The notes beneath the pieces were generated by a model. The model searched no databases. It saw only the letters and a program-made list of their open reading frames with translations, and was not told the origin of the DNA. A stretch of 64,000 nucleotides of DNA from Cyanobacteria bacterium FACHB-471 (GTDB taxonomy: Bacteria > Cyanobacteriota > Cyanobacteriia > Elainellales > Elainellaceae), in assembly GCA_014695345.1 (NCBI GenBank), contig JACJOC010000058.1:124001-188000 (forward strand), read 5' to 3'. Made by a program: the position numbers and the translations under genes. This document shows positions 29,430-46,605 of the stretch, one piece after another (position 1 is the first letter of the stretch; every line of letters starts with the position of its first letter).

Positions 29430-31373
29430 TTACCCACCCACATGAATTGAGGGACGTCGCTCAGGATCTTTCTCCGCCTTACGCAGCACTTCGCGAGTCA
29501 CAACTGCAATGTCACCTTCTCCGAACAGAATGAAGCGCAACAGGTATTGAATTGGGTTTCCCTCTACCCAACCAAAATAGGCATGAGGAAGTTCGCCAGT
29601 TTGGTCACGGGTATGGAGTAAGATGGCAGCGATCGCATTCGGCACAGCAGCACTTTCAGCCCTCAGAATGCGGTAATTTCCGACGGTAGTGCCTTTCACT
29701 CGAACAATATCGGCAAACTCCGATGCATCAACAATTTGAACCTCTAGAAAGAGGACAGGATCTTCTAACGGAATATGATTATCCTCTCGGACTTCCTTTT
29801 CTTTCTGGTGGTATTCTTCGACATCTCCAACATTAAACCGATTCGCGATCAGCCGTATTGTCTGTTGGCTTGCGTCAGCGATAAAACGACGAGCCGTTTC
29901 ATCCATTTCAACTTGCTCTACCCGTAGCTCAGTCGATCGCCATACCCGCGAAACCAGAGAGGTCAGCACGATCGCTCCAATGAAAAAGCCAGCAATTCTG
30001 ATCCCTTCAGGTCTTTCGATAATATTGACAATAGTGGTGTAGATAAATACTAAAGTGATGGCACCAAAAGCGAATCTTGCTCGTTGGGTTCCGTGGCGAC
30101 GAGAGGATAGCGTAACTGCGACTGCCGCAGAAGTCATTAACACCAACACGCCTGTAGCATAAGCTCCTCCCTGGGCTTCTACATTCGCTTTAAAGAGAAT
30201 AGTTACAGCAAAGGCAATAATGGTATAGACCAGAACGAGCGGGCGAGTGACTCGCGTCCAGTTCGGTGCCATGCCATAGCGCGGTAAGTAGCGCGGCACG
30301 ATGTTTAACAATCCTGCCATTGCAGATGCGCCTGCAAACCACAAAATGGCGATCGTACTCAAATCGTAGATTGTGCCAAAGCCATTGCCTAGATAACGGT
30401 GAGCAATGTAAGCCAGAGCGCGACCACTGGCATCGCCTCCCGGTTCAAACTCTGCTGCTGGAATTAGCAGTGTCGTCACCAAGCTGCTGCTCAGCAAGAA
30501 GAAACTCATAATTAATGCTGCTGTAGTCAGCAACTTCCGCGTATTGCGAATGCGCCCAATTGGATAATCCTCCCTATCGCTGCTATTTCCCTTAACCAGA
30601 GGCATTACAACGACTCCCGTTTCAAACCCTGACAAACCCAGCGCCAGTTTTGGGAAAAGCAGAACTGCCACACCTAACATTGCTAAAGGATTGCTATGAC
30701 TGGCAAACAAAGCTCGTTGCCAATCCCCAATTACAGTAGGTTGCTGAACAATTTGAGACACCCCAACCCCAATGGTGATCAGGTTTAAAAGCAGGTAAGC
30801 ACCCACCAAAAAAACTGCTAGACCGATCGCCTCCTGAAATCCCCTGAGAAATACGGCTCCCAGTAGGGTAATGAGTACGAGGGTAATGGCGATCGCCTGC
30901 CCGTGCAAAAAGTGCGGGGCTAGAGGATTCTCAATAATATGAGCTGTAGCATCCGCTGCTGAAAGCGTAATAGTAATAATGAAATCAGTTGCCACAAAAC
31001 CCAGTAGGCAAAGCACAAAAAACTTACCCTGCCACCAGGGAAGCAGATGCTCTAGCATTGCAATTGAACCCTCGCCATGAGGGCTTTTGGCTGCAATCCG
31101 TCGATAGATAGGTAAGGCTCCAAACAGCGTTAGCAGCACCAGGATTAAGGTTGCCAATGGGGAAAGAGCGCCTGCCGCTAAAGCCGCAATTCCAGGTTGG
31201 TAGCCTAGAGTTGAGAAGTAATCAACTCCCGTAAGGCACATGACCTGCCACCAAACATGTTTCTGATGGGTTTGCTCTTTGGGGTAAGGGCCCTCTATAG
31301 TTTGCTTATCTTCCTCAAGCAACCAGCACATCATTCTGCGGTAGTACTTATTTGAGCTAACTGCGCGAACCAT
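29430..31373 (-). CDS. APC-superfamily amino acid permease
   Basis: A large permease of about 647 residues. ATG 31373 has GAGGTG at suitable distance; a GTG at 31424 would add 17 residues. About 12 hydrophobic helices span roughly residues 45-480, beginning [24 protein letters not shown], a glycine-rich first helix typical of APC transporters. A soluble C-terminal region of about 160 residues ([12 protein letters not shown]...) follows. Secondary uptake or exchange of amino acids, polyamines or K+ is possible; the substrate cannot be read from sequence. Confidence 0.85.
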
Positions 31374-31476
31374 AACCCCTGCACCTCGCTGGATTAAACC
31401 TGTATTCAGAACAAGCTTTATCACTGTAAATGGTCTAATCCACGTTTTTACAACTCAGTTAGCAGCGGAACCTGAT

Positions 31477-31619
31477 CTGCACAACTCGCGGACATTAGAA
31501 CGGTTAGTAGCGCGTTAAGCTAGAAAGTTGGGTTCCACTGCACTTCACCCAACCTACCCAACCTGCACAAATTGTGGATATTAGAACGGTAGGTTGGGTA
31601 GAGCAGAGCGGAACCCAAC
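31477..31619. repeat. Direct repeats and GTTGGGTT-type inverted repeat
   Basis: Two 29-bp direct repeats, 31477-31505 and 31563-31591 (CTGCACAA...GGA.ATTAGAACGGT), 86 bp apart. A GTTGGGTTCC...CACCCAACCTACCC block at about 31528 pairs with GGTTGGGTAGAGCAGAGCGG...CCCAAC at about 31591-31619, another copy of the dispersed inverted-repeat family. Confidence 0.65.
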
Positions 31620-31724
31620 GCTTCAGACTTGCCACACTACGAGTCCCATAACTAGAAAAAAGCCGCGACTTTCCTCCAATCGTTCCCAAATTTTGGCTTG
31701 AGCATCCAACATTAGACCTTGATC

Positions 31725-31916
31725 ATGACGAAAAGGGGTTCTGTCGTGCCAAAAAGAGGTTCTGTCATCCCCAAAAGAGGTTCTGTCGCACCGAAAAGAG
31801 GTTCTGTCGTTCTGGAGAAGAGTTTTGTCACCCTGGAAAGAGGTTTTGTCACGCCGGAAAGAGATTCTGTCGTTCTGGAAAAAGGTTTTGTCGTCCTGGG
31901 AAAAGATTTCGTCGTG
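31725..31916 (+). repeat. 21-bp tandem minisatellite with open heptapeptide frame
   Basis: About nine degenerate units with a 21-bp period (unit like GTCGTGCCAAAAAGAGGTTCT). Because 21 is a multiple of 3, a frame stays open: ATG 31725 to a stop at 31941-31943 gives a 72-residue heptapeptide-repeat product (PKRGSVV drifting to LEKGFVV). No ribosome-binding site precedes the ATG. It is more likely non-coding or a chance ORF than a protein gene, though a short repeat protein cannot be excluded. Confidence 0.7.
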
Positions 31917-31943
31917 TTTTTTGAATTAAACCTTCCCTGCTAG

Positions 31944-32124
31944 GGCAATAACTCGACTGTTGACGTGAAGCCCTTCTATTTCCAGCCTGGATCTTTCTCT
32001 TTCACAAAGAAGCGGTTCGGGTTAATTAGCTGACACATCTTTTGATGTAGATGAGGTGGAACGACGTGAAGCCTAATACTTGTGTAGATTCTGTTGGGTT
32101 CCGCTTTGCTTCACCCAACCTACG
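31944..32124. repeat. Intergenic with dispersed repeat copy (32046-32124)
   Basis: The 79-bp stretch 32046-32124 aligns without gaps to 55295-55373 (differences mostly in the first half). It ends TTCTGTTGGGTTCCGCTTTG...CACCCAACCTACG. Left and right halves are imperfectly self-complementary. No gene seen. Confidence 0.7.
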
Positions 32125-32154
32125 GGGTGTTATTAGGTTTCAGAGTTTCATAAG

Positions 32155-32188
32155 ACAAAGAGGTTAGGGATATCCCTAACCTCTTTGT
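32155..32188 (-). terminator. 34-bp perfect palindrome downstream of bcsA
   Basis: Perfect palindrome of 34 bp (ACAAAGAGGTTAGGGA, TA, then the complement), 48 bp after the bcsA stop. The likely role is terminating the cellulose operon; the T-run is short. Confidence 0.6.
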
Positions 32189-32236
32189 TCCATAAATCAA
32201 GTTTTGAGCGGATGAGGTTCTAAACAGAACGCTGTT

Positions 32237-34813
32237 TCACCTCAGCGTTTTGAGAAGCTGTTTGATTTTGATTCCCTGTTGGCGATCGAGATTCTTGGGA
32301 AACCGTAACTCGATCACCGTGGGGCTAGTTGTAGAGGCTGCACTGTAAGGCGTATCTACCATCCGTCCTGGCAACTCAATCGTCTCAACTTGAGCAATCA
32401 GCCGTTTAGGGAGTGGGTCAGTGGAATATTGGCTGACTAACAGTCCTATTGCTGGCTTGTTGTGCCTCATCTCATCCAGGTTGTGAATTGTCTTTTCAGT
32501 CAACTCCAGACGCAGCGTGCGGGTATTGATCTCGGTTGCTGTGGCAGGGTGAAATTGCCCTTCCCAATAGATTTGCACAGCTGCGCTCACCTGTTTTCGC
32601 ACCGTCACTCTGGGGTCTGGTTTGGGATCTTGGAATACCCGGAAGAGTCCCGTGATCAAAAACCTGAGCGAGCCCAACGGGTTGTCCAAGTTCTGGCGTT
32701 CTTGGGAGTACCACTGGTTAACGTCCGAGTAGAGAACCAACACCAGTGCGTCAAACTGGATTGGAGTCGGATTAACAAAGTCTACCGCTACGATGATCTG
32801 ATTATCATTTTGCGGCGTTACCCGAATGATTTGCCCGTTTAGAAATGCTCGTGCGCCAAAGTCGCCCACCAGTTCTAGCTCAATCTGATCGGGCAGGTTG
32901 GGCCAATTTTCTAGCAGAATGCGGCAACCCGTCTCACTCGCATCCAGGGTTTTACCTGTCCAGGTCTGGTCTTGACTATAGATGATGGCTGTAAGCTGGC
33001 GATCGAGACGGTGAGCGCGGCGCAACTGAGGCTGCTCAAAGGCAACGAGAATTGCGGCAATCAACAGCAGCAGGTTAAACACACTCCAGGCGGCATTGAT
33101 GATTACAGCTTCCTGGTTTTCGGGTCGCAAGATTAACCAGAAGGGCACCGTCATCAGGGAAACCAGCAGCAGAATGGAAACAATCACAGGCACCTGGGCA
33201 GAACTCCAGTCAAAGCTGCGTTTGTTGACCATCGTACCTTTGGCGGTCACGTTGAATTTGCCCAACTTGGGGTTGAGCAACGCCATGAAGGTAACCAGAC
33301 CATCTTGAAATGCCATTGCATATTCAAAGATCTCGTTCCAGAAGGAAAAGCGTACAGTTTTGTAGGTGATGTAGTTGGCGTTCATCGCCAACACGATATG
33401 CGGCAGGGCGTAGGCTAGTGTTTCTGTACCTAAACCGCGAATCAGGTCAACGCCCAGCAGCAGGTAGAGGATGGGGGCGATCGCATACATCAACCGAGGA
33501 AACCCGAAGAAGAAGTGAGAAGTCGCCGAGAAGTAGCACAATCGCTGCGCCAAACTGAGTTTGAGTTTGGGGTTAAACAGCGGGTTCTCTAGCCGCAAAA
33601 TCTGTGCCATGCCTCGCGCCCAGCGGACCTGCTGCCCCACGTAAGCAGAAAACCGCTCTGGAGCCAGACCTGCCACCATGATCTTGTCGTAGTAAACCGA
33701 CTTGTAGCCTTTGGAGTGCAATCGCAGGGAAGTATGGCAGTCTTCAGTCACGGTCTCCACGGCAATGCCGCCAACTTCCTGCACATAATCTTTGCGGAAA
33801 ACGGCTGCGGAACCGCAGAAAAAGGCAGCATTCCAGAAGTCATTTCCCTTTTGCAGGACTTTGTAGAACAGCTCATTGTTAACCGGGACTCTGCCCTGCG
33901 TTAGCAGGTTGCGCTCAAACGGGTCGGGGTTATAAAACCAGTGAGGAGTTTGCACCAGCGCCACTTTAGCGTCATAAAAGAAGCCAACGGTGTGCAGCAA
34001 AAACTGGCGAGTGGGAATGTGATCGCAATCCAGGATCAGAACTAGTTCACCCGTCGTGTGCTGCATTGCCGTGTTGATGTTTCCAGCTTTGGCGTGATCG
34101 TTGTTGTCACGTATCAGCATCATGCAGCCCAGTTCGTTGCAGATCTGGCGAAGCTGTTCTCGCCGCTCAGGAAATTTGCGCCCGTCATCTAGCACGTACA
34201 CCCGCTTCTTCTCGGGTGGATAGTCGATCGCCATCGCTGCCAGGGCTGTTTTTCGCACAATTTCTACATCCTCGTTGTAAGTGGGAATGTAGATATCAAC
34301 GCTAAACCACTGGTCTTTGGGATAAGCAGCAAGGTCTACGGGCTGGCGGTCTTTGAGTTTGAGCGTTTGAAAGTAGGCGAGCAGGAGGGTGGCGATCGCA
34401 TACAGTTCTGCCCCAAACAGCAGAATACTCAGCGTTCCATTCACCCAGCTGTCTAGATTCAGCGTGTAGCTGGTGCGGTAATAGAGATAGCGAAAGGTGG
34501 TGACAATGCTCAGCCAGACCAAAAATAAGTGTAAGTATTCACTCGTCTGCTGTTGGGTTTGCCGCTGCTCTAGCCGCACCATAAACCAGCCGATCAGCAT
34601 CAGTAAGATCGCCACGATGGTTTGTTGCCAGATCGTGAGTGGTGCAATAATCAGCGGCACTGACAGCACCAGCACCAAAAACACCAGCACCATCAGCAGA
34701 GAGCGACCCAACCCACCAAAGAGAACCCCAAGCCAATCTGGTAAGCGGCTGAGCAACCACAGGATTCCGGTCGGACGCGGGCTGCCCTGATGCTCATGAG
34801 AAGAACTGGTCAT
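32237..34813 (-). CDS. bcsA: Cellulose synthase catalytic subunit BcsA (GT2-PilZ)
   Basis: Inner-membrane processive glycosyltransferase that builds beta-1,4-glucan from UDP-glucose and threads it across the membrane. The 858 residues hold N-terminal helices, then the GT2 domain with DDG (209-211), DCD (262-264), FFCGSAAVFRK, TED (356-358) and QQVRW (394-398). Further helices carry the gating loop FNVTAKG (about 520-526). A C-terminal PilZ domain has RRAHR (598-602) and DASETG (624-629), the c-di-GMP-binding motif, so activation by c-di-GMP is expected. It overlaps bcsB by 4 bp (ATGA), so the two are translationally coupled. Last gene of the operon. Confidence 0.96.
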   Translation of the reverse strand: MTSSSHEHQGSPRPTGILWLLSRLPDWLGVLFGGLGRSLLMVLVFLVLVLSVPLIIAPLTIWQQTIVAILLMLIGWFMVRLEQRQTQQQTSEYLHLFLVWLSIVTTFRYLYYRTSYTLNLDSWVNGTLSILLFGAELYAIATLLLAYFQTLKLKDRQPVDLAAYPKDQWFSVDIYIPTYNEDVEIVRKTALAAMAIDYPPEKKRVYVLDDGRKFPERREQLRQICNELGCMMLIRDNNDHAKAGNINTAMQHTTGELVLILDCDHIPTRQFLLHTVGFFYDAKVALVQTPHWFYNPDPFERNLLTQGRVPVNNELFYKVLQKGNDFWNAAFFCGSAAVFRKDYVQEVGGIAVETVTEDCHTSLRLHSKGYKSVYYDKIMVAGLAPERFSAYVGQQVRWARGMAQILRLENPLFNPKLKLSLAQRLCYFSATSHFFFGFPRLMYAIAPILYLLLGVDLIRGLGTETLAYALPHIVLAMNANYITYKTVRFSFWNEIFEYAMAFQDGLVTFMALLNPKLGKFNVTAKGTMVNKRSFDWSSAQVPVIVSILLLVSLMTVPFWLILRPENQEAVIINAAWSVFNLLLLIAAILVAFEQPQLRRAHRLDRQLTAIIYSQDQTWTGKTLDASETGCRILLENWPNLPDQIELELVGDFGARAFLNGQIIRVTPQNDNQIIVAVDFVNPTPIQFDALVLVLYSDVNQWYSQERQNLDNPLGSLRFLITGLFRVFQDPKPDPRVTVRKQVSAAVQIYWEGQFHPATATEINTRTLRLELTEKTIHNLDEMRHNKPAIGLLVSQYSTDPLPKRLIAQVETIELPGRMVDTPYSAASTTSPTVIELRFPKNLDRQQGIKIKQLLKTLR

Positions 34814-37323
34814 CTTGCACCTCCACTGGCAATGCGGTTGATATAAAGTTGAGAAATGCCGTATAGCATCAGCGCAGCTACTACGATGCCAGTGGGCAGA
34901 AGAAACCAGTTGTCTTGCAAGAAGCGAGTGGCCCGACCCAGCAGGTTAGTTTGCTCGATTCGCCGCTGGTTGGTCTGCTGAAGAAACTCCAAGTTATAGC
35001 CTGTCGCATCGTAGGGAGAAGGATTCGGTTGATTAGCTGCCACTAGCACCGTGTCTCCCTGGAATTGGAAGAACAGCGGATCATTGGCAAACATTTCCTG
35101 TACCCGATCCAAGCCCTGGTTTGACTGGGCGGTGAGAGCCAATAAGATACGCTCAGCATTCCAGGGAGAAATCACGGACTTGATTACGCCTTCCTCATCA
35201 GATAAAGTTTGCAACTGGTTATTGTTGCGCTGACGAGAAAAGAATTCGCCTAACTTCAGCCCCCCAGAATTTGCCGCAAAGGCTTCGGGAATGGGGAAGC
35301 GATCGCGGATGCCAATTCCCACCAGGTTCTTTTGCTCTCGTACCTCTGCTGGAACGCTGTTTGCCTGATAAACGTTTAGCTTCACCGAGTCAGCGCGGCT
35401 GACTCGTCCCAGGCGTTCGCTCAGCTTCAGCAGCGTCATCACTTCGTAATCGTTGGGTGCGTCGGGCAGCACGACTGCCGTGCTGGAGAGATCTTGAGGT
35501 GCAGCGAGCGGAAAGCCCGTTTGCAACAGCCGCAGGTCGGGCAACTGCACCGCATTCTGCCGATTCAGGTCAAAGCTAGTATCACCATGAACGGTACCCC
35601 AAAGCTGCTGATCCTGACTTTGACCACATTCCTCCGTGACCCGTGGCCGCAGAACAAACAACACTTCAATTTGAGAGTTGGGCTGAATCAGGCTCTCTGG
35701 CAAATTCACATTGAGAGATTCGCGTCCCCCTTCTTCTGAAGCGAGTCGCTTGCCACCAACCGTCACGCCATCAATCCGAACTTCGATCGCTGAAGTGCGA
35801 GGATTGACCTGAGGACTGTAGCTGTAGCGCAGCGTCATCGTGTTGCCGCGCATAAACTGGTCATCAGGCAACGCCCAAAAGTTAAACCGAATCGGTGGCG
35901 CATTAGAGCCATGCACAGTCGTGTCTTTGAACGGTTCGCCATCCGTACCGCGCAAACTGCTAAGGGTAAAGGTGTCTTCGGTGGGCAGGTAGCGATCCCA
36001 CTGACGCGGAGGGGGAGATGAAACTTCGTCGATATTAGTAACGATTAGCGCCTGACCTGAGCCTAGCGGCTGTCCGTCAGACTGCACAAGAAACTGTACG
36101 GCTTTGGCAACCCCGGCAGCATCGTTGCCTGTAGCCACTAAAACTGGAACGCCGTTATCTTCCAGCGTGGTCATCATCAGCACACCTACATCCCCCGGCA
36201 GGGTGCTGCGGTTGCCGTCTAAAAGCTGGTTGCCCTGAAACTGGAAGGGCAGCGATAGGTTTTTGAGCACAGGCTGTTCGGTGGGAGTGCCGATGAGAAT
36301 CAGGCGATCGCCCCCCTGCACCTGATCCAAATCTGTCACCATACGCGTGTCAACTGGGCGAAAGTCGGCATAGCGACCAGCAGAAGCCTGAAACCGAGCG
36401 GCAGAGGTAAGCCAGGATTCACTTAGTTCTTTAGGACGCAGGTAAACCAGGCGATCGCGATCGAGTCCTAAATCGTCAATAAAAGGATAGGGATAGCGGT
36501 TAAAGTCGAGGGCGACTGCCTGCGGTTCAAACTCAAACAGCAATTTCGAGTCGGGCAGCACCTCCGTCCACAGCATCGGGTCAGTTGGGTCGGTGCATTC
36601 CTCTGAATTCTGTTGCTGAGTGGCGATCGAAATCTCATTCCTGTCCTGCAACAGCGACGTGGGAATGTTAAACAAAACCTGTCCGACCTGAGAGTTGGGT
36701 CGATTCAGCGCAACACTGCCAATGCTCGTATCATTCACCCGCACCGTCATGCTCGACTGGGTGGGCAACAGCGCCGGGGAATGCTGAAACCGAATCAGTG
36801 CCTTAGCTGACTTCACCCCCCAACCCCTCGGACGAGTAAAGCCCAGCCGCGTTTCTGGATAAATTCCTTCTAGCCGCAAGCGATTTCCCACCACCGGACT
36901 GCGGTTAAAGGACAGCATATATTCATAGGTGGTTGCAGGCGTGGCTGGCTCCTCAGGAGATTCTGCTACAGGCGCAGCGGGTGCAGGCTGACGAGCCGCA
37001 GGCGCAGGCGCAGGACGAGGGGAAGTGTTGGAGGGTTGCGATCGCCCTCCACTACTAGCAGGTGGCGCACTCGGCGGGGCAGGGCGAGGACGATAAACCG
37101 GAGCCTGACGCGGCGCTTCGGGCAAGACAAACTCCCGAATTACCTGCTCTTCCTGTTGCTGAATTGGGCGATCGGTCTGAGCTTGAGCCAGAGTGGTTAG
37201 TCCCAACAGAGTACTCAAACAACTCAAACAGAAAAGCAAAATGAGGGAACGCCGCCACAGGCGAAATCGGCTAGAAACGCGGCGAAGTGGAAAGGAGGGA
37301 GGAGAGTGACGAGATGGACGCAT
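34810..37323 (-). CDS. bcsB: Cellulose synthase periplasmic subunit BcsB
   Basis: Periplasmic, membrane-anchored partner that guides the emerging glucan and completes the active synthase with BcsA. The 837 residues start with a signal anchor (about 25-48). A Pro/Ala-rich linker (about 70-130) follows, then alternating carbohydrate-binding and flavodoxin-like modules (GVKSAKALIRFQHSP...; VSRADSVKLNVY...), and a C-terminal membrane helix WFLLPTGIVVAALMLYGISQLY (about 805-826). It sits directly before bcsA with a 4-bp overlap. The linker is unusually long and low-complexity compared with enterobacterial BcsB. Confidence 0.92.
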   Translation of the reverse strand: MRPSRHSPPSFPLRRVSSRFRLWRRSLILLFCLSCLSTLLGLTTLAQAQTDRPIQQQEEQVIREFVLPEAPRQAPVYRPRPAPPSAPPASSGGRSQPSNTSPRPAPAPAARQPAPAAPVAESPEEPATPATTYEYMLSFNRSPVVGNRLRLEGIYPETRLGFTRPRGWGVKSAKALIRFQHSPALLPTQSSMTVRVNDTSIGSVALNRPNSQVGQVLFNIPTSLLQDRNEISIATQQQNSEECTDPTDPMLWTEVLPDSKLLFEFEPQAVALDFNRYPYPFIDDLGLDRDRLVYLRPKELSESWLTSAARFQASAGRYADFRPVDTRMVTDLDQVQGGDRLILIGTPTEQPVLKNLSLPFQFQGNQLLDGNRSTLPGDVGVLMMTTLEDNGVPVLVATGNDAAGVAKAVQFLVQSDGQPLGSGQALIVTNIDEVSSPPPRQWDRYLPTEDTFTLSSLRGTDGEPFKDTTVHGSNAPPIRFNFWALPDDQFMRGNTMTLRYSYSPQVNPRTSAIEVRIDGVTVGGKRLASEEGGRESLNVNLPESLIQPNSQIEVLFVLRPRVTEECGQSQDQQLWGTVHGDTSFDLNRQNAVQLPDLRLLQTGFPLAAPQDLSSTAVVLPDAPNDYEVMTLLKLSERLGRVSRADSVKLNVYQANSVPAEVREQKNLVGIGIRDRFPIPEAFAANSGGLKLGEFFSRQRNNNQLQTLSDEEGVIKSVISPWNAERILLALTAQSNQGLDRVQEMFANDPLFFQFQGDTVLVAANQPNPSPYDATGYNLEFLQQTNQRRIEQTNLLGRATRFLQDNWFLLPTGIVVAALMLYGISQLYINRIASGGAR

Positions 37324-37329
37324 AGGAAG

Positions 37330-37458
37330 TAGGGGTGGGGGTTAGGAGTTAGGAATTAGGGGTTAGAGAGTGTAGGAGGGTTAGAGAGTGGGGAGTGTAG
37401 GGAACTGAGGAGGGTTAGAATCTGCATCCCTAGCCCCTAGCCCCCAGCCACCTAGCCC
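37330..37458. repeat. Degenerate TTAGGGG-like simple repeat
   Basis: About 130 bp between the TPR gene and bcsB consists of drifting GGGTTAGGAGTTAGG / CCCTAGCCCCTAG units, with G-rich then C-rich halves on the plus strand. The same C-rich repeat appears at 20267 and 63644. It interrupts an otherwise tight operon and may form a weak hairpin. Confidence 0.65.
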
Positions 37459-39768
37459 CTAATACCGCTCCCAAGGGGGCTGAAATCCTCGCTGTTGGAG
37501 GAAGCCTTCCTCTAAAAGCTGCATTTGCTGATTCAGGTTTTCGTCTGTAATCCCTTGAGCAAGTTGTTGAACCTGAATTTGTTCGAGCCGCTGGAGCGCT
37601 TCCAGTCGTCTGCCCTGCACAGCGGTTAGGGCAATTAAGGAAGTTTGGGCGACCGGATCGTCAGGGCGGATGCTCAACACCTGGTTGTAAAGCTGGGCGG
37701 CGGAGTCGTACTGCCGCTGCTGGAACCGAATGCCTCCCAAGGCAGAAAGCGCATCGGTGTTGTTGGGTTCCTGGCTGAGAATGGTTTCGTAGGATTCGCT
37801 AGCCAGATCCAGATCGCCTAGCTGTTGCGCCAGTTCTCCCTGAACAAAGTAGGCGCTGAGGTTGGTGCGATCGCGGGCAATCAGTTCTGCGACTCTTGCC
37901 CGTGCCAGAACAGGGTCACGCTGAGCTATCACCTGCGCCAGCCGGAGTTGAATTGGAATGTTATTGGGATCAGCCTCTAGCAGCGTCAGGTAAAGCGCCT
38001 CTCGCTGAGCGTTGGCGGGCAACACGCTGACCAGGTTATACAGTTCTGGTGGTGTGTCGGTAGCGGGACGCTCTTGCAGCCAGCGACTCAGCACCGCCTG
38101 TGCTTCCGCTTCAGAGATCAGCCGTCCCTGATAGGCAAGGCTGGCGCGTCCAAGTTGGAGGGTGAGATTTTGTGGATCGCGCGCGATCAGCTGGTCGTAG
38201 AAAGCGATCGCCTCATTCACTCGTCCCTGCGCTTGCCGAATGCCTGCCAGACCTTGCAGTGCGCCATTCAACACGCCCTCATCTGCCGGATTGCTGGCAA
38301 CGATTGATTCATAGCGCTGTGCGGCCGAATCCAGGTTGCCTTCACGTCGATCGATTTCTGCTAAAAGCAGGTTCGGAGACTGGTCTGCGGAACCGACGGC
38401 TGCACTGTAAGCATTTAGCGCCGTTCTTGCCCCAGCGTAATCATTCCGCTGAATCAAGATTTGGGCGACGCGGAAGTTAAGCAGCGGTTCATTCACACCT
38501 GCCGACAGCAGCGATTGATAAATCGGCAACAGTTCAGGATCGGGGGAATCGATTCTCAGCAGCGATCGCGCAATCACCTGTTGCTGGAAGCGATCGCTGG
38601 GCAGGGGTTGCAATTCTGCCTGAAGTCGCTGCCGTAGATCGGCTCTAGAAATTTGTCCAAGCTGGCTCTGCAACACCAACTGCTGCGTCAGCAACCCCTT
38701 GTCATCAGGGAACTGCGGAGTCAACTGCTGGTAAAGCTGAAGCGCGTATGCCTGTTCACTCGACACGCCGCTCAGCACGTCTGCCGCCTCACGTACCAGA
38801 GCCGGAGAAGCACTGGTCGTGGTGAGAACCTGACGATATAGCAAGGCAGATTCGGTGTAATAGGCAGTGTTGCCGCTGTAGCGCCCCATCACACTGAGGG
38901 CACGAGCTAGCGTCAGACGTGAATCACCCCGCCCGCGCAAGGGATCGATCGCTGCCTCTGCCTCGGTAAACTGCCGATTTGCTGCATACGCCGAAGCCAA
39001 CGCCGCTCGGAGCTGGATCGTATCTCGGTTAATCTGGGGCGACTGCCGCAGTTGCGGTTCCAGCACTTGAATTGCCTCTGCTGGATTGCCTGTTTCCTGA
39101 AGAGCCAACGCATAGGCGATCGCCGCATTCCCAGAAATCGACTGCCCACTAGCTCGGTAGCGGTTAAATAGCTCCAGCCCACGCCGATAATCGCCCGTGT
39201 AGGTGTAAACCTGCGCTGCACCCAGGACGGCATCCGGCGTGGGATTGTTTTGCAGCACAACTTCGTAGTCGGCGATCGCATCGGCAAATCTGCCCTGGTA
39301 GCTATACAGCAGCGCCCGCTGCGCTCTCGCCTGGTTATCGTTTGGGTCAATGGTCAGCAGCGTATTCAGCGCTTCAATGCCCCGGTTTTGCCACTCCGAA
39401 CGATAGCCACCCAGCAAGCCAATGGTATTGAGTGCCAATCGATTGTTGGGGTCGATGGTCAACACTTGCTCGTAGGCTTGAAATGCCTCTGCATCCCGTC
39501 CGGCTCGACGGTAGGCGATCGCCAAACCCAACTGCGCCTCGACCGATTGGGGATTTTGCCGCACCGCCTGCTGAAATGCTGTAATTGCCTGATCGACCAA
39601 TCCCTGACTCAGCAGCGTGTAGGCTCTGCGAATGGCAGAACTCACCGCCTGAGCTTGAGCAGCAGAAGGGGCGATCGCCAGCGCTAACAGCGGGGTCGCA
39701 CTCAGACATGCCAGCAGTAGCAGGCTAACCAGCCGATGACAGGATTTGGATAAAGCAAACTTTTTCAT
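37459..39768 (-). CDS. Periplasmic TPR protein, BcsC N-terminal-like
   Basis: A 769-residue protein with a signal peptide (LVSLLLLACLSATPLLALA..., cleaved after about residue 40) and then some 18-20 TPR helix pairs covering nearly the whole length (YRRAGRDAEAFQAYEQVLTI and so on). It has no C-terminal barrel. In canonical cellulose operons BcsC has an N-terminal periplasmic TPR superhelix joined to an outer-membrane barrel. Here only the TPR half is present, and a separate porin-like gene starts the operon 2 bp upstream. The inferred role is a periplasmic scaffold leading cellulose to the outer membrane. Confidence 0.85.
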   Translation of the reverse strand: MKKFALSKSCHRLVSLLLLACLSATPLLALAIAPSAAQAQAVSSAIRRAYTLLSQGLVDQAITAFQQAVRQNPQSVEAQLGLAIAYRRAGRDAEAFQAYEQVLTIDPNNRLALNTIGLLGGYRSEWQNRGIEALNTLLTIDPNDNQARAQRALLYSYQGRFADAIADYEVVLQNNPTPDAVLGAAQVYTYTGDYRRGLELFNRYRASGQSISGNAAIAYALALQETGNPAEAIQVLEPQLRQSPQINRDTIQLRAALASAYAANRQFTEAEAAIDPLRGRGDSRLTLARALSVMGRYSGNTAYYTESALLYRQVLTTTSASPALVREAADVLSGVSSEQAYALQLYQQLTPQFPDDKGLLTQQLVLQSQLGQISRADLRQRLQAELQPLPSDRFQQQVIARSLLRIDSPDPELLPIYQSLLSAGVNEPLLNFRVAQILIQRNDYAGARTALNAYSAAVGSADQSPNLLLAEIDRREGNLDSAAQRYESIVASNPADEGVLNGALQGLAGIRQAQGRVNEAIAFYDQLIARDPQNLTLQLGRASLAYQGRLISEAEAQAVLSRWLQERPATDTPPELYNLVSVLPANAQREALYLTLLEADPNNIPIQLRLAQVIAQRDPVLARARVAELIARDRTNLSAYFVQGELAQQLGDLDLASESYETILSQEPNNTDALSALGGIRFQQRQYDSAAQLYNQVLSIRPDDPVAQTSLIALTAVQGRRLEALQRLEQIQVQQLAQGITDENLNQQMQLLEEGFLQQRGFQPPWERY

Positions 39769-39770
39769 GG

Positions 39771-41687
39771 CTACAAGCTGCCCCTGGGTGTAACGTCAAA
39801 TTCAGTCCGAATGCGGAATCCAGCGATCGTCTCAGAGAAACCATCGATCTGCTGGAGGGTGAAACCCAGTCGCAGATTAGGCAGCACGCTGAAGTCATAA
39901 AACAGCTCTGCCACATCAGGAATGTCGCGATCAGAACGGCTCCGCAGTGACTCGTTAGACAAACCGCGACCGTAGGCTAGCCCCAGGCGATCGTTTGGCA
40001 TAAACAAGTCCAGAAATGTCACGCCACCGCTGTAGGTATCGCCACTCGCATCCAGGTCACGGTTCTCGTAACGTCCGTAACGAGCAAAAATTCCCATATT
40101 TAGCTCAGGGACAAAGATTTCAGCGTTGACTCCGTAAGACTCCTCGCGGTCAGACTCGCGCAGCCCAAACTCGCCATCGCCCCGGTCAACGTCAAAAATC
40201 TCGTTAAATCCGCTGTCATTCCCAGCATCGCTGCCTGTGGCATAGGTGCCTCGGATAATCGCATTTCCTAACCAGAAGGCAACTTCTCCAGCAAATCCGT
40301 CCAGGTCAAAGTCACCCATGTTACGGGACGATGAAAACACAGCAGCTCTAGCTTCGATGTTGTCGGTCAGACTCCAATTGACGAGTGCCGCAGGGCGAGA
40401 ACCAATGCCCGTCGCGGTCAACGCTGGGTTCGTTTGAAACACCGGGTTAAAGAACTGACTTGCCCCATCTTTGGCAAAACTGTTGCGATCAAAGTAGGAG
40501 GTCAGGTCAAGTTGTCCAATCACAAACCGCAGGTTGGGTACATCTTCCAGCGATGCCGCCAGATACAGTTCGTTGATGCTCAGCCCGCCATCTGGCGAAT
40601 CGGTCAGCGCATCCCCTTCCGTCAAGTCGAGCGTCGCGCCTGCCTGGAGGTTTGGTGTAATCGGATAAACTGCCCGCAGTCGCGCCCGCGCCGAAGATTC
40701 ACTATCCTGAAAAATGTAAACACCTTGCAGGGTAATCGAGGGTGGTGTGAGTGCCGTACTGCGAAGTAAAGAACTTTCTCCTGAAGCCTGTGAGGTGAGC
40801 GATTCACCTGGAGGCGTTAGCTGAGCCGCTTCACTGGCAACGGGTGCAGTCGTTGGAAGCGTAGGGCTAGCAGCGACGCTGGGCAAAACTTGGTTGATTT
40901 GCGCTGCTTCAAAAGCAGAAATTGCAGCCGTATTGCTAGATTGGTCAGGCGTAAAGAGCCTACTTCCTACATCGGTTGTGGCAATGGCGGTTGAGGCAAT
41001 GGTGGTTGGAGTAGCAACAGTTGGGGTAGTGGCAGTTGAGGGAACGGGAGCGATCGCCCCTGGCATAACCGATGTGGGCTCAACCCCCGTCTCTGCTGAT
41101 ACAGGTGGCACCATCCCAGGTGTGGGAACGGGAATGGCGATCGCCGATTCATTTCCCGTCGATTCAGTCGCAGTTTCAGTTGCAGTTTCATTCGCCGATT
41201 CAGGGGACGCTGTAGCACCCGTCATCTGCGCGATTAACTCATCTTCAGTTTGGTAGTCAGATTGAGGATCAGATTGGGAAGGTGTGGGAGATCTCCAGGC
41301 AGGCACCGTGACCGCAGCTATAGGAGCTGGAGCGGGTGGTGCAGTACCTGCTAAATTTGAGTCATTTTCGTCAGCAAATCGGTTTAGCGTCTCGTCTGTC
41401 GGCAGTGCGGCAATGTGAGAATCACTTTCTGCTGATTCGGCTACGCCTTTAGCCTCTGCAATGACCACTGCTGTTTCAGAATCAACCAATGAATCATGAT
41501 CAGTTGCAGAATCAGAGCTTGACTCATCCAGAATTGCATCAGGGATGGGAGCGGCATTTGCTTTTCCTAAAGAAAAAGTTGAACCTGTGAGAAAACCGAA
41601 TTCAAAGCAAACAAAATAGGCACCGGAAAACAATAAAAAGTTGAGGAGGACAGACTTAAAAAGTCCGACTTTCATTGGGGTCTTCAC
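39771..41687 (-). CDS. Outer-membrane porin-like beta-barrel in the cellulose operon
   Basis: 638 residues. It has an N-terminal signal segment (about 8-45) and a long low-complexity Ala/Thr/Ser/Pro/Glu-rich linker (about 45-315). A C-terminal region (about 315-638) is built of alternating hydrophobic and aromatic strands (ITLQGVYIFQDSESSARARL, AVFSSSRNMGDFDLDG, YGVNAEIFVPELNMG...) as in carbohydrate porins. It is first gene of the operon and 2 bp before the TPR gene. I infer that it supplies the outer-membrane pore that BcsC normally carries in one chain. A passive porin is the alternative. Confidence 0.8.
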   Translation of the reverse strand: MKTPMKVGLFKSVLLNFLLFSGAYFVCFEFGFLTGSTFSLGKANAAPIPDAILDESSSDSATDHDSLVDSETAVVIAEAKGVAESAESDSHIAALPTDETLNRFADENDSNLAGTAPPAPAPIAAVTVPAWRSPTPSQSDPQSDYQTEDELIAQMTGATASPESANETATETATESTGNESAIAIPVPTPGMVPPVSAETGVEPTSVMPGAIAPVPSTATTPTVATPTTIASTAIATTDVGSRLFTPDQSSNTAAISAFEAAQINQVLPSVAASPTLPTTAPVASEAAQLTPPGESLTSQASGESSLLRSTALTPPSITLQGVYIFQDSESSARARLRAVYPITPNLQAGATLDLTEGDALTDSPDGGLSINELYLAASLEDVPNLRFVIGQLDLTSYFDRNSFAKDGASQFFNPVFQTNPALTATGIGSRPAALVNWSLTDNIEARAAVFSSSRNMGDFDLDGFAGEVAFWLGNAIIRGTYATGSDAGNDSGFNEIFDVDRGDGEFGLRESDREESYGVNAEIFVPELNMGIFARYGRYENRDLDASGDTYSGGVTFLDLFMPNDRLGLAYGRGLSNESLRSRSDRDIPDVAELFYDFSVLPNLRLGFTLQQIDGFSETIAGFRIRTEFDVTPRGSL

Positions 41688-42010
41688 TCCTAAAGATCGT
41701 GTGAAAACAGACCCACTCAGAGGTAGGCTAGCTGTTTAATCTGCTGTGCAGTTTGATGGTTAAGGCTTAGTCTGTGGCTTACACAGGAAGGTCGAGGCTA
41801 GTGTGGAGATGCGTGGAGATGCTGCCAGTACCCTGTGTGATTTGGCAATTCTGTGCCAAACTTCTGTCTCTCTTGCCAAGGATTAATCTTCCATCAATAC
41901 TTACGCAAATACCCTGTGTAATCCGGTTAATTTTGTGCCAAACTTCGGCTAGTTTGCTGAGGTCTTAATCAGCATTATTTGCTTGCACAAATCTAATCTG
42001 GCGATCGCTT
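41688..42010. promoter_or_regulatory. Divergent promoter region of the cellulose locus
   Basis: It separates the minus-strand cellulose operon from the plus-strand lipoprotein. Two imperfect 36-bp direct repeats (41829-41864 and 41910-41945; TACCCTGTGT...TGTGCCAAACTTC) lie 81 bp apart. The first also contains the inverted repeat TTGGCA-N6-TGCCAA. This is a candidate operator; no regulator can be assigned. Confidence 0.5.
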
Positions 42011-42790
42011 ATGTTCCTGAATCAAACTAATCCTACAATTTCCCACCAAATTCAAGCTGTTTTGAGGATTCAACAGCGAATTGTGTGTTTAACCGTAGTG
42101 CTGCTAGCAGTACTTCTAACGACTGGATGTGCTCAACCCATCAGTCGGTTTAGCCGATCATCTGAACCGGCCGCCCCACAGCTAGAGGTTGAGCGGATAG
42201 ACCCATTTGGGCAACCGGGAGGATACAGGGTAACAGGCAGCACAAATCTACCTGACCAGACACAAATCACAATTTCTGCGATTCGCTATCTGCAAACCTC
42301 AGGTCAATTGATCGCTAATTCTGGCTCCTCTTACTCGGTGTTAGCCCGACAATTTGCGCCTGTTGAACAGGGAAGCTGGGAAGCCAACCTTACACTCTGG
42401 CAAGTCGCCCCAAACGGCAAGTTTCAAGAGGTTTGGCAGCTAGATCAGGGCAATTTAGGAGTGCAGGTTCAGCCCGACCCAAACGTGACTTTCTTAGTGA
42501 CGCTTGATCCGACAAATCAACCTGCAACCTTACAAGACCAGTTAGAGAGCCAGGGTGAAACTTTGACAGGGAGTTTAGTGCAATTCAATGCAGATGGAGA
42601 GCTATATCTTCAGGCGAGCAAGACCCTAATTGTTGCGTTGCCCACTGGTGGTACAACTCCTCCAGTCAGTCAGACAGATGATGAAGCGAATTCAACGTCA
42701 TCGAGCTTAGAAGCCACTAGTGCCAGTCCACCAGCACTTAGCCCAACTCAAACAGATGCTCCGATCTCATCCGACGCTTTTCTACGTTAA
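42011..42790 (+). CDS. Hypothetical lipoprotein
   Basis: A 259-residue protein with a long N-terminal signal and a lipobox LLTTGC (Cys about 40), so it should be a lipoprotein of the inner or outer membrane. The mature part is beta-rich (YRVTGSTNLPDQTQITISAI...) up to about 215, then a Ser/Thr/Pro tail. No known domain recognised. It is divergent from the cellulose operon and may share its control; a link to cellulose export is inference only. Confidence 0.75.
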   Translation: MFLNQTNPTISHQIQAVLRIQQRIVCLTVVLLAVLLTTGCAQPISRFSRSSEPAAPQLEVERIDPFGQPGGYRVTGSTNLPDQTQITISAIRYLQTSGQLIANSGSSYSVLARQFAPVEQGSWEANLTLWQVAPNGKFQEVWQLDQGNLGVQVQPDPNVTFLVTLDPTNQPATLQDQLESQGETLTGSLVQFNADGELYLQASKTLIVALPTGGTTPPVSQTDDEANSTSSSLEATSASPPALSPTQTDAPISSDAFLR

Positions 42791-42933
42791 CTCCATCACC
42801 ACCACGCGGGCACCTTGCCCGCTAATTGTCATTTATCACTTATCACTTGTTACTTGTTAGAAACCAGTAGCCGATGACAAATGACTAACAGGCGAAGCAT
42901 CTAAACAGTTGCTTCGCCCGACCATTATTAACA

Positions 42934-43695
42934 CTAAGCAGCTCCAGATTTGTAAGACACCGTAACAGGTGAAAGTGAGTTAGCTGGAATTGCGCCAACC
43001 GTTTGCAGCTCTTCGATTTGAGCCATTACTTGCTTGAGGTGGTCAATCAACTCATTCACCTGTTTTGGCTCTGCGGCATGAGTAGACTGAGGCACAGAGG
43101 CAACCCCTTGCTTCATAGCGGACGTGGGCTGAGCATAGTGAGTAAAAGTGGGTGCCGCAGAATGAGATGCCGCTTTGGAGGCTTGAGCATTTGCGTCAAA
43201 CCTGCCAGAAGCGATCGCCGTTTCTAAAGGCTCAGTCGGATCATCATCTTCCACCGTCCGAACTGGATGCCCTGAAGGAGCAGAAGCAACGGGTTGAGCA
43301 TTACCCTCTTCTACTTCATCTTGCAGAAAATACTGTAGCCCAGCAGCGTTTAAGCGCTTTTCAGAAAACTGGAGGGCTTCGATTTGAGCCTCTTTTTCCT
43401 GCAAATCACGCTGTAGAGAGGAAACCTGATCTTCGACTTCAGAAGACTTGCGCGAAGACTGGCTCCAACCCAATGCTGAGATGGTAGCAACACCCATTCC
43501 AAGACTCATCACCGTTGCAATGCCTAGGTAAGGAGCAGCCAAATCTTTGACTTCACCGGAGAACACGGGTTCGTCCTCAAGGTGAATATCCACTGGTTCG
43601 GAACCTAGTACGACCAATGGCAAAGTAGCGGCGGCAAAAACTGCACCTGACAGCATTACGGCTGGTAGCACGAAGCGTTGGAGTGGTGTAGTCAT
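42934..43695 (-). CDS. Hypothetical membrane protein with coiled coil
   Basis: 253 residues. Two N-terminal membrane helices (about 8-30 and 54-78), a coiled coil (about 82-115, SSLQRDLQEKEAQIEALQF), a disordered Ser/Ala/Pro-rich region, and a second short coil near the end (VNELIDHLKQVMAQIEELQ). No family recognised. It lies between the cellulose locus and the cellulase gene but on the opposite strand to the latter. Confidence 0.65.
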   Translation of the reverse strand: MTTPLQRFVLPAVMLSGAVFAAATLPLVVLGSEPVDIHLEDEPVFSGEVKDLAAPYLGIATVMSLGMGVATISALGWSQSSRKSSEVEDQVSSLQRDLQEKEAQIEALQFSEKRLNAAGLQYFLQDEVEEGNAQPVASAPSGHPVRTVEDDDPTEPLETAIASGRFDANAQASKAASHSAAPTFTHYAQPTSAMKQGVASVPQSTHAAEPKQVNELIDHLKQVMAQIEELQTVGAIPANSLSPVTVSYKSGAA

Positions 43696-44370
43696 AATCT
43701 AATTCCTACTAAACAGAGGGGGGAATCGTTTTTCAATTTGGCGGCAGCGATACTCGATTGAAGTATTACTGCGGAACAACAGAATTACTGAAGTTTTGTT
43801 GCCTTTCCATCCAAGTTAAACGTAATCTCCGTAAACAACCGTATAGACCTAGTAAAGTCCGACGCAGTCCTGTAAAGTCAAAATGAACTTTCCTAACAAT
43901 AAGATTGCGATCGCTGAAACCTATTTCACAAACTTTTTTCTCTTCCAAAAAACTTTTCACATTCAGTTAAAGGAACAGTAAAATCAGCCTTCTAGCAGCC
44001 ATTTCAGAGTGTTTTAGTACGCTTAAGTACTTAGCCTTAAATACCTTTCAAAAGAGAAATATCCAGCTTCAGAAATTTAGCTATTTCGGTACAATTACTG
44101 TTAAAGCCGTGCCTATCTGTATCACCCTTCAAATGCAGCAACTCGGAATCTAGCAATCCTGCTTATATGTCTGAGATGTAGAGGTCTAAGATATAGAGGA
44201 AGTGGCACTTTTTGGGCGATCGCCCGTCTTGCTACATAAACTTGCAGAACCTACATTTGCCAAGTTCAACAAAACTCGCTTAATAAGATAGATAGCTTCA
44301 TTCGCGCTTACTTTTGGGTGCAGCTCCAGATCGATCGACCCATTCCTAAAAGATAAGAGCAGCACTCGCC
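43696..44370. other. Intergenic, 675 bp
   Basis: No convincing gene. Around 43847-43880 two CCTAGTAAAGTC / CCTGTAAAGTC sequences lie about 22 bp apart. These may be binding sites for the coiled-coil protein gene or the cellulase, otherwise unassigned. Confidence 0.4.
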
Positions 44371-46044
44371 ATGATTCCCCCAATTCATCGCTCAACCCCA
44401 AATCGTAGCCGAAGATGGACACCCTTAGCCCAACAGATCTGGCTAGGACTTCTATCAATGGTGCTGTGGATGGGGCTATCGCTAAACTTCCATGCTCCAA
44501 TGACCGTTACCGGAGCCACTACTCCAATCCAGCTACCTCTATCCACTCGTGGCGCTGAAATTGTGGATACCAGAGGACAAGCCGTTCTACTGAGAGGGGT
44601 TAACTGGTTTGGCATCGAGACTGAGATGCAGGCTCCTCACGGGCTATGGCTGAGAGACTACAAAGAGATGCTGGCGCAGATCCGCAGCCTTGGTTATAAC
44701 ACCATTCGCTTACCCTACTCCGTCCAGTCACTTCGGGCAGACAGCATTGCTGGTGTAGATTTCAGCATCGGCAGCAACCGTGAGCTAGAAGGCAAAACAC
44801 CTCTAGAAGTGATGGATCTGGTAATTCAAGAAGCTGAGCGTCAGGGGTTATTAATCTTGCTGGATAGCCATCGTCTCAACAATCAAAGAATTCCAGAACT
44901 GTGGTACGGCGACGGCTTCACAGAAGCTGATTGGATTGACACCTGGACAATGCTCGCTAGACGCTACCGGAATCAGCACAACGTGATTGGGGCTGACCTG
45001 AAAAATGAACCGTATGGTCGCGCCAGTTGGGGAACAGGCGATCGCGACACTGATTGGCGCTTAGCCGCCGAACGAGCTGGAAATGCCATTCTGGAAGTCA
45101 ATCCCGATTGGCTAATTGTTGTTGAAGGGGTACAAAACAATGTCCCCGGACAACGACTTGCCGACCACTGGCAGGGCGGCAACCTGGAAGGCGTAAAAAA
45201 TTATCCTGTCCGTCTGTCTGCCCCACGCAAACTGGTTTACTCACCCCATGAATACGGTGCTGGGGTATTCAATCAGCCCTGGTTTTCAGAACCTAACTTT
45301 CCGGATAACCTCTACACTCGCTGGGAAACAGGCTTTCATTACATCGCCACCCAGGGTATTGCTCCTATCTTGGTGGGAGAATTTGGCGGACGGCAAATAG
45401 ACGCAGAATCTAAAGAGGGCATTTGGCAGCGGCAGTTCGTAGACTACCTCAATGACAATAGCCTCAGCTTTACCTACTGGAGTTGGAACCCCAACAGTAC
45501 TGACACAGGCGGCATTCTACAAGATGACTGGCAAACAGTTGAGACTCCAAAACAAGAACTATTGAATCAGCTTTTGGAGACTGCGACCTCAACTTCTGGT
45601 CTAGAGCCTTCTCCTGACTTGCCTGCTGGCGATCGCCCCTCCTCCCCTCCATCCTCTTTTAACTCATCTTCTAGGTCCGCTTCTCCCCGAAGCTCCTCTA
45701 ATCCTACGTCCAGCCCTGCTATTGCTAGTGCAGCAGGCAATCTAACTGCCAACTCCCTCATTCAATCGGATTGGGAAACTGGTTTTTGTGTAAGTTTCCG
45801 AGTCACAAATCGAGGCAACACCAGCGCCAACAACTGGCGATTATTGTTTGAGATGAAAGATGCCGCCATTACTCAAAGCTGGAATGGCTCTTTTAGTCCC
45901 ACTGGTTCAGCCTACGAGGTCATTCCCCCGGATTGGGCAACGACAATTCAGCCTGACCAGTCTGTAGACTTGGGGTTTTGTGCTAACAAATTGGGCGATG
46001 ACTATCTGCCGCGGCGGACCAGAATCATTGAGCGCACCAACTGA
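44371..46044 (+). CDS. Secreted endoglucanase, GH5 plus CBM2
   Basis: 557 residues. A twin-Arg-containing, long signal (about 14-49) precedes a GH5 barrel (about 55-390) with the acid/base Glu213 (KNEP) and nucleophile Glu337 (VGEFGG). A Ser/Pro-rich linker (about 400-448) leads to a C-terminal CBM2 cellulose-binding domain (about 449-550; FCVSFRVTNRGNTSANNW). It should cut beta-1,4-glucan outside the cytoplasm. Cellulases in synthase loci commonly trim or release the nascent chain; here a GH5 enzyme stands in for the usual GH8 BcsZ, and a secretion or processing role is inferred. Confidence 0.92.
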   Translation: MIPPIHRSTPNRSRRWTPLAQQIWLGLLSMVLWMGLSLNFHAPMTVTGATTPIQLPLSTRGAEIVDTRGQAVLLRGVNWFGIETEMQAPHGLWLRDYKEMLAQIRSLGYNTIRLPYSVQSLRADSIAGVDFSIGSNRELEGKTPLEVMDLVIQEAERQGLLILLDSHRLNNQRIPELWYGDGFTEADWIDTWTMLARRYRNQHNVIGADLKNEPYGRASWGTGDRDTDWRLAAERAGNAILEVNPDWLIVVEGVQNNVPGQRLADHWQGGNLEGVKNYPVRLSAPRKLVYSPHEYGAGVFNQPWFSEPNFPDNLYTRWETGFHYIATQGIAPILVGEFGGRQIDAESKEGIWQRQFVDYLNDNSLSFTYWSWNPNSTDTGGILQDDWQTVETPKQELLNQLLETATSTSGLEPSPDLPAGDRPSSPPSSFNSSSRSASPRSSSNPTSSPAIASAAGNLTANSLIQSDWETGFCVSFRVTNRGNTSANNWRLLFEMKDAAITQSWNGSFSPTGSAYEVIPPDWATTIQPDQSVDLGFCANKLGDDYLPRRTRIIERTN

Positions 46045-46104
46045 TAGAGAACAAGCCCTGCACCAAGCCGAAATCTTGTAGGAATGAACCCATAAATTTG
46101 GGTT
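46045..46104. other. Short spacer before palindromic element
   Basis: No gene; contains the GGGTTACACC start of the palindromic element. Confidence 0.3.
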
Positions 46105-46200
46105 ACACCAACTCCAAAAATTAGGGTTACAGATGGAAGGGCATCCCGCCGGGCGGGATGCCCTTCCATCTGTAACCTCTTTTCAAAGAGATGTTATTAG
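46105..46200. repeat. Palindromic element with conserved ends (copy 3)
   Basis: A perfect 26-bp stem (46125-46150 and 46152-46177) around one base, tip GCATCCCGCC G GGCGGGATGC. The left flank ACACCAACTCCAA and right flank AAAGAGATGTTATTAG align with the minus strand of the 23.1 kb copy over about 100 bp, with stem differences that keep pairing. It lies 80 bp after the cellulase stop and may also terminate transcription. Confidence 0.75.
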
Positions 46201-46605
46201 CTTTTGTTTTAAGAATGCAATATCTTCCGTAAGAAGGATGGGAGAATTTTTTTACACTTCCCCCAATTTTGTTCTGAACCCCTGTGGCACTTTATAACAA
46301 TAGTTATAGAGCAAACTTTGGCTCTATCCTTTACCTTAAGAACAATGCCAAAATTTCTGCTCAATTATATGTACGCTACTTTACATAGGCAATTAGGTTG
46401 TGAGGTTAACAGTGCGAAATTGCAGATGACAAATTGCTTTAATAGAAAACCTTCCGAAAGATAGATGCGTTCAAAAATGAGAGGTGAAGTGTAAAAGGTA
46501 ATGCTTTAATTATTTCTCAGCCGCTTTATATCGATTAATCAGAATCAGTTAATTAGACCTTCAAGTTCAGTTCACCCTAATAGTAGATTTAGTTGGAGCC
46601 TATTT
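46201..46605. other. Intergenic upstream of glgX
   Basis: About 400 bp of A/T-rich DNA with no gene seen. A small hairpin GAGCAAACTTTGGCTC lies at about 46307. It should hold the glgX promoter; a GGAG ribosome-binding site precedes the ATG. Confidence 0.4.

Follow-up and report, generated by a model that had tools for sequence, protein, structure and literature searches.

The window analysed here, a stretch of 64,000 nucleotides from the genome of Cyanobacteria bacterium FACHB-471, carries a four-gene bcs operon on its minus strand. In the order of transcription, the operon encodes a barrel protein, a TPR protein, BcsB and BcsA (Table 1). The stop codon of the barrel gene lies 2 bp before the ATG of the TPR gene, while bcsB and bcsA overlap by 4 bp. 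An earlier note on this DNA had described this order, its single strand and the 2-bp gap, and we located the reading frames just so. The annotated start of the barrel gene is a GTG at 41687, which we consider doubtful; an in-frame ATG at 41675, preceded by AGGAG, is the likelier start.

Table 1 Features of the bcs operon and its surroundings (window coordinates).
Feature	Position	Strand	Evidence
bcsA, cellulose synthase with PilZ domain	32237..34813	-	TIGR03030 above cut-off; PilZ match
bcsB	34810..37323	-	PF03170, 326 bits, 5.2e-97
TPR protein, predicted periplasmic solenoid of ~20 helical pairs	37459..39768	-	Pfam TPRs; AF2 model
Almost unvarying C-terminal tail EGFLQQRGFQPPWERY of the TPR protein, candidate site for docking the barrel	37462..37509	-	Conservation; pattern count
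Barrel gene: signal peptide, disordered linker and OprB-type 16-strand barrel	39771..41687	-	Pfam OprB above cut-off; AF2 model; OprB structural match
Loop L3 with invariant motif TSYFDRNSFAKD, presumed pore constriction	40401..40505	-	Alignment, AF2 strands, conservation 0.91
Disordered N-terminal linker, residues 46-312, where ordinary cyanobacterial porins have an SLH domain	40752..41552	-	Composition; six SLH paralogues
Short conserved linker motif YQTEDELIAQMTGA, candidate docking peptide	41214..41255	-	Motif search in 94 homologues
Divergent lipoprotein gene, likely additional subunit	42011..42790	+	Invariant lipobox cysteine; same 12/292 genomes as barrel, TPR, BcsB
Conserved membrane/coiled-coil protein, frequent operon neighbour	42934..43695	-	51/80 loci with enough flank
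GH5-CBM2 cellulase, frequent operon neighbour	44371..46044	+	Pfam; 24/62 loci with enough flank

BcsA scored 713.6 bits against the CelA model TIGR03030 (NCBIfam cut-off, 699.1) and contains a PilZ domain (Pfam). A BcsA with a CelA core and a PilZ domain, and a BcsB encoded beside bcsA, are features by which a Bcs operon is recognised; a further one, BcsZ, a member of family GH8, is missing from the window copy. The gap between the TPR gene and bcsB (37324-37458), which is the site of bcsZ in relatives, is pyrimidine-rich and contains repeated CTAACCC-like units. An Rfam search of positions 30000-47000 returned zero matches at the gathering score, and a Pfam search with the conserved membrane/coiled-coil protein found no family.

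The barrel protein matched the OprB family of Pfam (PF04966) with 34.8 bits (gathering score, 22.9), and OprB matched 48 of 57 homologues of the barrel at E-values up to 1, whereas the barrel family of BcsC, BCSC_C (PF05420), matched none of the 57. Porins of the OprB family usually serve in sugar uptake. The AF2 model of the barrel has 16 strands (mean pLDDT, 84.7), and its top structural match is OprB of Pseudomonas putida (Z 25.2, rmsd 3.0, 298 residues aligned; next match, Z 21.7). Structures of BcsC, PgaA and AlgE are missing from the 50 structural matches listed, an absence that is itself uninformative, and no real match emerged when the barrel profile was searched against PDB sequences. 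The genome encodes six other OprB proteins, all of them with an SLH domain; no SLH domain was found by Pfam in the bcs barrel, and the two bcs barrels of this genome are its weakest OprB matches. When aligned with hhalign, the profile of the bcs barrels matched the SLH porins of the genome with a probability of 97% (E 5e-11); the BcsC barrel of E. coli reached 0.4% and a reversed control 0.2%. We conclude that the barrel most likely derives from a recruited porin and is not a BcsC barrel that became detached. The earlier description of the barrel as resembling a carbohydrate porin is thus borne out by the Pfam family, the best structural match and the profile match to SLH porins. The name "split BcsC", on the other hand, has to be abandoned, the barrel being a diverged member of the OprB type and having no detectable sequence similarity to the BcsC barrel.

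One loop of the barrel, L3 (residues 395-429), stands out by a mean column identity of 0.91, compared with 0.54-0.73 in the other loops; judging by its position, we take it to be the constriction loop of the porin. The barrel is preceded by a linker of 267 residues, 79% of which are A/P/E/S/T/Q/G/N/D/K, in keeping with the disordered segment of about 270 residues reported before. Its length is highly variable, the invariant barrel motif beginning anywhere from residue 173 to residue 1020 across the homologues. Slightly more than half of 94 homologues carry a short linker motif, roughly E-D/N/S-x-L/F-I-x-Q, with a mean score of 18.6, whereas shuffled linkers score about 10 (kinship among the 94 being ignored). 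We regard this motif as a lead, a candidate docking peptide.

The N-terminus of the TPR protein looks like a Sec signal and has no lipobox. In the AF2 model of the protein (mean pLDDT, 88.8), about 20 helical pairs form a solenoid, and a fold search with this model returned generic TPR proteins only. Structure prediction of both proteins, which the earlier note had proposed, yielded a 16-strand barrel and a solenoid of BcsC-like dimensions, distributed over two chains. The final 16 residues of the TPR protein form the most conserved window of the entire chain: the strict tail pattern is present in 92 of the 94 TPR proteins from barrel-bearing loci, and the other two have near variants.

Three second-copy operons (L035, L037 and L039) consist of TPR, bcsB and bcsA genes without a barrel gene. 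Of these, L037 and L039, which belong to one genus, have a degraded tail, and L035 has an intact one. The degradation fits a role of the tail as a contact of the barrel, although it comes from one lineage only. Since barrel-less operons exist and L035 keeps the tail, barrel and TPR protein are not strictly tied to each other within one operon. The separation of their genes may also allow one barrel to be shared in trans by two operons of a genome.

About 100 cyanobacterial loci repeat the order barrel - TPR - (GH8) - bcsB - bcsA, and in most cases a GH8 bcsZ separates the TPR gene from bcsB. This answers the question, raised by the earlier note, of whether the four-gene order is present across cyanobacteria. 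A scan covering 84,980 species gave 185 loci, of which the best 80 were kept; all are cyanobacterial by title and share this order, and the genera include Nostoc, Calothrix, Scytonema, Moorena, Symploca, Oculatella and relatives of Leptolyngbya. No reading frame fusing TPR and barrel occurs in these best 80 of 185 loci, and the two are separate in all loci examined. Barrel and TPR genes share a strand in all 94 distinct single-copy pairs, most commonly with a 4-bp overlap. At two loci (L116 and L151), unlike the others, about 1.5-1.6 kb separates the barrel gene from the TPR gene, possibly an insertion. Within the family of the host, BcsB was found in 30 of 36 genomes, and most of the operons fetched there keep the order.

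The barrel, the TPR protein, full-length BcsB and the upstream lipoprotein are found in the identical 12 of 292 cyanobacterial genomes, a co-occurrence spanning seven families and inflated by the relatedness of the 12; four further genomes of the 292 have weak or partial BcsB matches only. The conserved gene order is far beyond chance, since about 100 loci repeat it and barrel, TPR protein and BcsB share the same 12 genomes. All 14 barrels of these 12 genomes adjoin bcs genes or are severed from them by a contig end. Two apparent exceptions, G040 and G152, in which barrel and bcsB are on different contigs, were dismissed, as contig ends cut the operon itself. One bcsB-bcsA pair (L051, on contig C91 of G013) has no TPR or barrel match adjacent, while the lipoprotein gene is still upstream. 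The earlier note had named two observations that would speak against its reading, namely the barrel as an ordinary porin in unrelated contexts and a fused BcsC elsewhere in the genome. Neither was encountered: no barrel was found away from bcs genes in the 12 genomes, and a search of this genome with PF05420 gave no match. Among 194 cyanobacterial genomes, PF05420 produced two marginal matches (G135 and G225).

BcsB is encoded twice in this genome. The other copy belongs to L032, a locus on contig C28 with the order barrel - TPR - GH8 - bcsB - bcsA, in which the GH8 gene is located at L032:12003-13364. An in-operon GH8 gene is present in 74 of the 86 distinct operons that could be scored. The gene for bcsZ is lost from the window copy and kept by the sister operon; because L032 retains GH8, the loss concerns the window copy and not the whole system. 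The GH5-CBM2 gene reported near the operon is present, but the suggestion that it takes the place of a GH8 BcsZ does not hold for the system as a whole. GH5 and GH8 genes occur together at 18 loci, and with so many GH5-flanked operons also having GH8, GH5 is no stand-in for BcsZ. The genome also contains two more CelA-like synthases, which score below the TIGR03030 cut-off and may be of Xcs type (C73:409891-411846 and C67:149670-151607; L174 and L175).

The lipoprotein encoded divergently from the operon has no match among solved structures and belongs to no Pfam family. With its family occurring, among the 292 genomes, in exactly the 12 that have the barrel, it is probably an unrecognised subunit of the system. 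One copy of the family (L178:7507-8304, in G030) is distant from any bcs operon. Elsewhere, a weakly BcsB-like protein adjoins an MshEN-containing GT2 glycosyltransferase (L168:7013-11291), with a similar layout at L169:3562-7878 and L170:7303-11563, and at L045:8573-13111 an MshEN-GT2 gene is beside a reading frame without a Pfam match. These gene pairs possibly represent a different polysaccharide synthase system.

From the gene content, order, linkage, predicted fold classes and conservation described above, we infer an export line for cellulose. We put the probability at roughly 70% that the operon is a cyanobacterial Bcs synthesis and secretion system in which BcsC has been replaced by a porin-derived barrel and a free TPR scaffold. 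By family membership, BcsA would synthesise cellulose under the control of c-di-GMP and BcsB would take up the chain in the periplasm. By analogy with BcsC, the TPR solenoid most likely binds BcsB with its N-terminal end and conveys the chain to the outer membrane. There, the 16-strand barrel, the putative exit pore, is most likely docked by the conserved C-terminal tail of the solenoid. The lipoprotein, as a likely extra subunit, may help at the outer membrane. The barrel most likely descends from a cyanobacterial SLH/OprB porin that lost its SLH domain, gained a disordered N-terminal linker and would have retained the constriction loop, now nearly invariant.

The family of the barrel also suggests a different function, namely that it acts as a porin taking up the cello-oligosaccharides set free by GH5 and GH8, with cellulose leaving through another channel, for example of TolC type. 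Besides its membership of OprB, this would account for the cellulases inside and beside the operon, and for cellulose synthases of other cyanobacterial types an exit through TolC has been modelled (PMC12430437). However, the barrel accompanies BcsB and the TPR solenoid in 12 of 12 genomes, usually with overlapping genes, and is conserved between loci about as strongly as the synthase (63.5%, compared with 64.8% for BcsA). Moreover, the operon encodes no other exporter, and no HlyD match was seen by Pfam among the operon genes of the window. We therefore consider uptake unlikely as the function of the barrel.

Two other readings keep the barrel in the cellulose pathway but differ on its origin or its role. 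The barrel might be a true, strongly diverged BcsC barrel split from its TPR part, its likeness to OprB reflecting nothing but a shared 16-strand architecture; strand number, approximate TPR length and operon partners are indeed all as in BcsC. The profile comparison (97% for OprB porins against 0.4% for BcsC) and the Pfam matches (48 of 57 homologues for OprB, none of the 57 for BCSC_C) argue against it, as does the position of the barrel gene before the TPR gene, opposite to the order in the fused protein, making such a descent very improbable. Alternatively, the product might be a periplasmic layer of the cell wall with the barrel as a structural component, as the cellulose of Synechococcus PCC 7002 sits between peptidoglycan and outer membrane (PMC12430437). 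That layer, however, has been assigned to a CesA of PCR type (PMC12430437), whereas the BcsA of the window is of PilZ type, and the barrel has no SLH domain for attachment, so that we give this explanation hardly any credence.

The proposed replacement of BcsC by a porin-derived barrel and a free TPR scaffold can be set against known systems. In E. coli BcsC, a 16-strand barrel follows 19 TPRs, the first of which binds BcsB (PMC11379886). The E. coli system (bcsA-bcsB-bcsZ-bcsC) shares with the cyanobacterial one BcsA, BcsB, usually a GH8 BcsZ, a long TPR solenoid and a barrel of 16 strands, with the genes arranged in mirror image; in cyanobacteria, however, solenoid and barrel are two proteins in opposite order, and the barrel is of OprB rather than BCSC_C type. 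With the SLH-OprB (SomA-type) porins of cyanobacteria, the bcs barrel has in common the barrel family and a YFD-NS loop motif, but it has a linker instead of the SLH domain and coiled coil, and is found only with bcs genes. In the alginate exporter of Pseudomonas, repeat scaffold and outer-membrane porin are likewise separate proteins, AlgK being of Sel1 type and AlgE an Alginate_exp barrel (PMC4594306); Pfam reported no Alginate_exp or Sel1 match for the bcs barrel, and neither is among the best 25 of 32 families matching the TPR protein. The XcsAB-TolC model of Thermosynechococcus also concerns a cyanobacterial cellulose synthase, and the two further CelA-like synthases of this genome are a point in common; here, however, BcsB is present, and TPR solenoid and porin would play the parts that the model gives to HlyD and TolC.

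A phylum-wide survey found BcsC_C to be absent from cyanobacteria and BcsB to be present in very few of them, and concluded that other components may be involved (PMC4594306), and a 2025 review describes cyanobacterial operons as typically without bcsB and presents XcsAB-TolC as an unproven model (PMC12430437). We found no description of a cyanobacterial barrel-TPR-bcsB-bcsA operon in the mainly open-access papers searched; others may mention it. The earlier note had called the arrangement an independent way to build the BcsC line. Our computational results support a porin barrel working with a separate TPR protein, but not the idea that this barrel is a piece of BcsC. On balance, we think that filamentous cyanobacteria independently evolved an equivalent of BcsC from an uptake porin of the OprB family, a free TPR scaffold docking through its tail and a dedicated lipoprotein subunit.

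How cellulose crosses the outer membrane of cyanobacteria is unsettled, and the operon provides named, testable candidates for the exit. These candidates span many genera (Nostoc, Calothrix, Scytonema, Moorena and relatives of Leptolyngbya), some of which are probably tractable. If the proposed reading is true, a sugar porin would have been recruited for the export of a polymer, and the system would represent a natural two-piece BcsC, of which barrel and solenoid could be studied separately or swapped.
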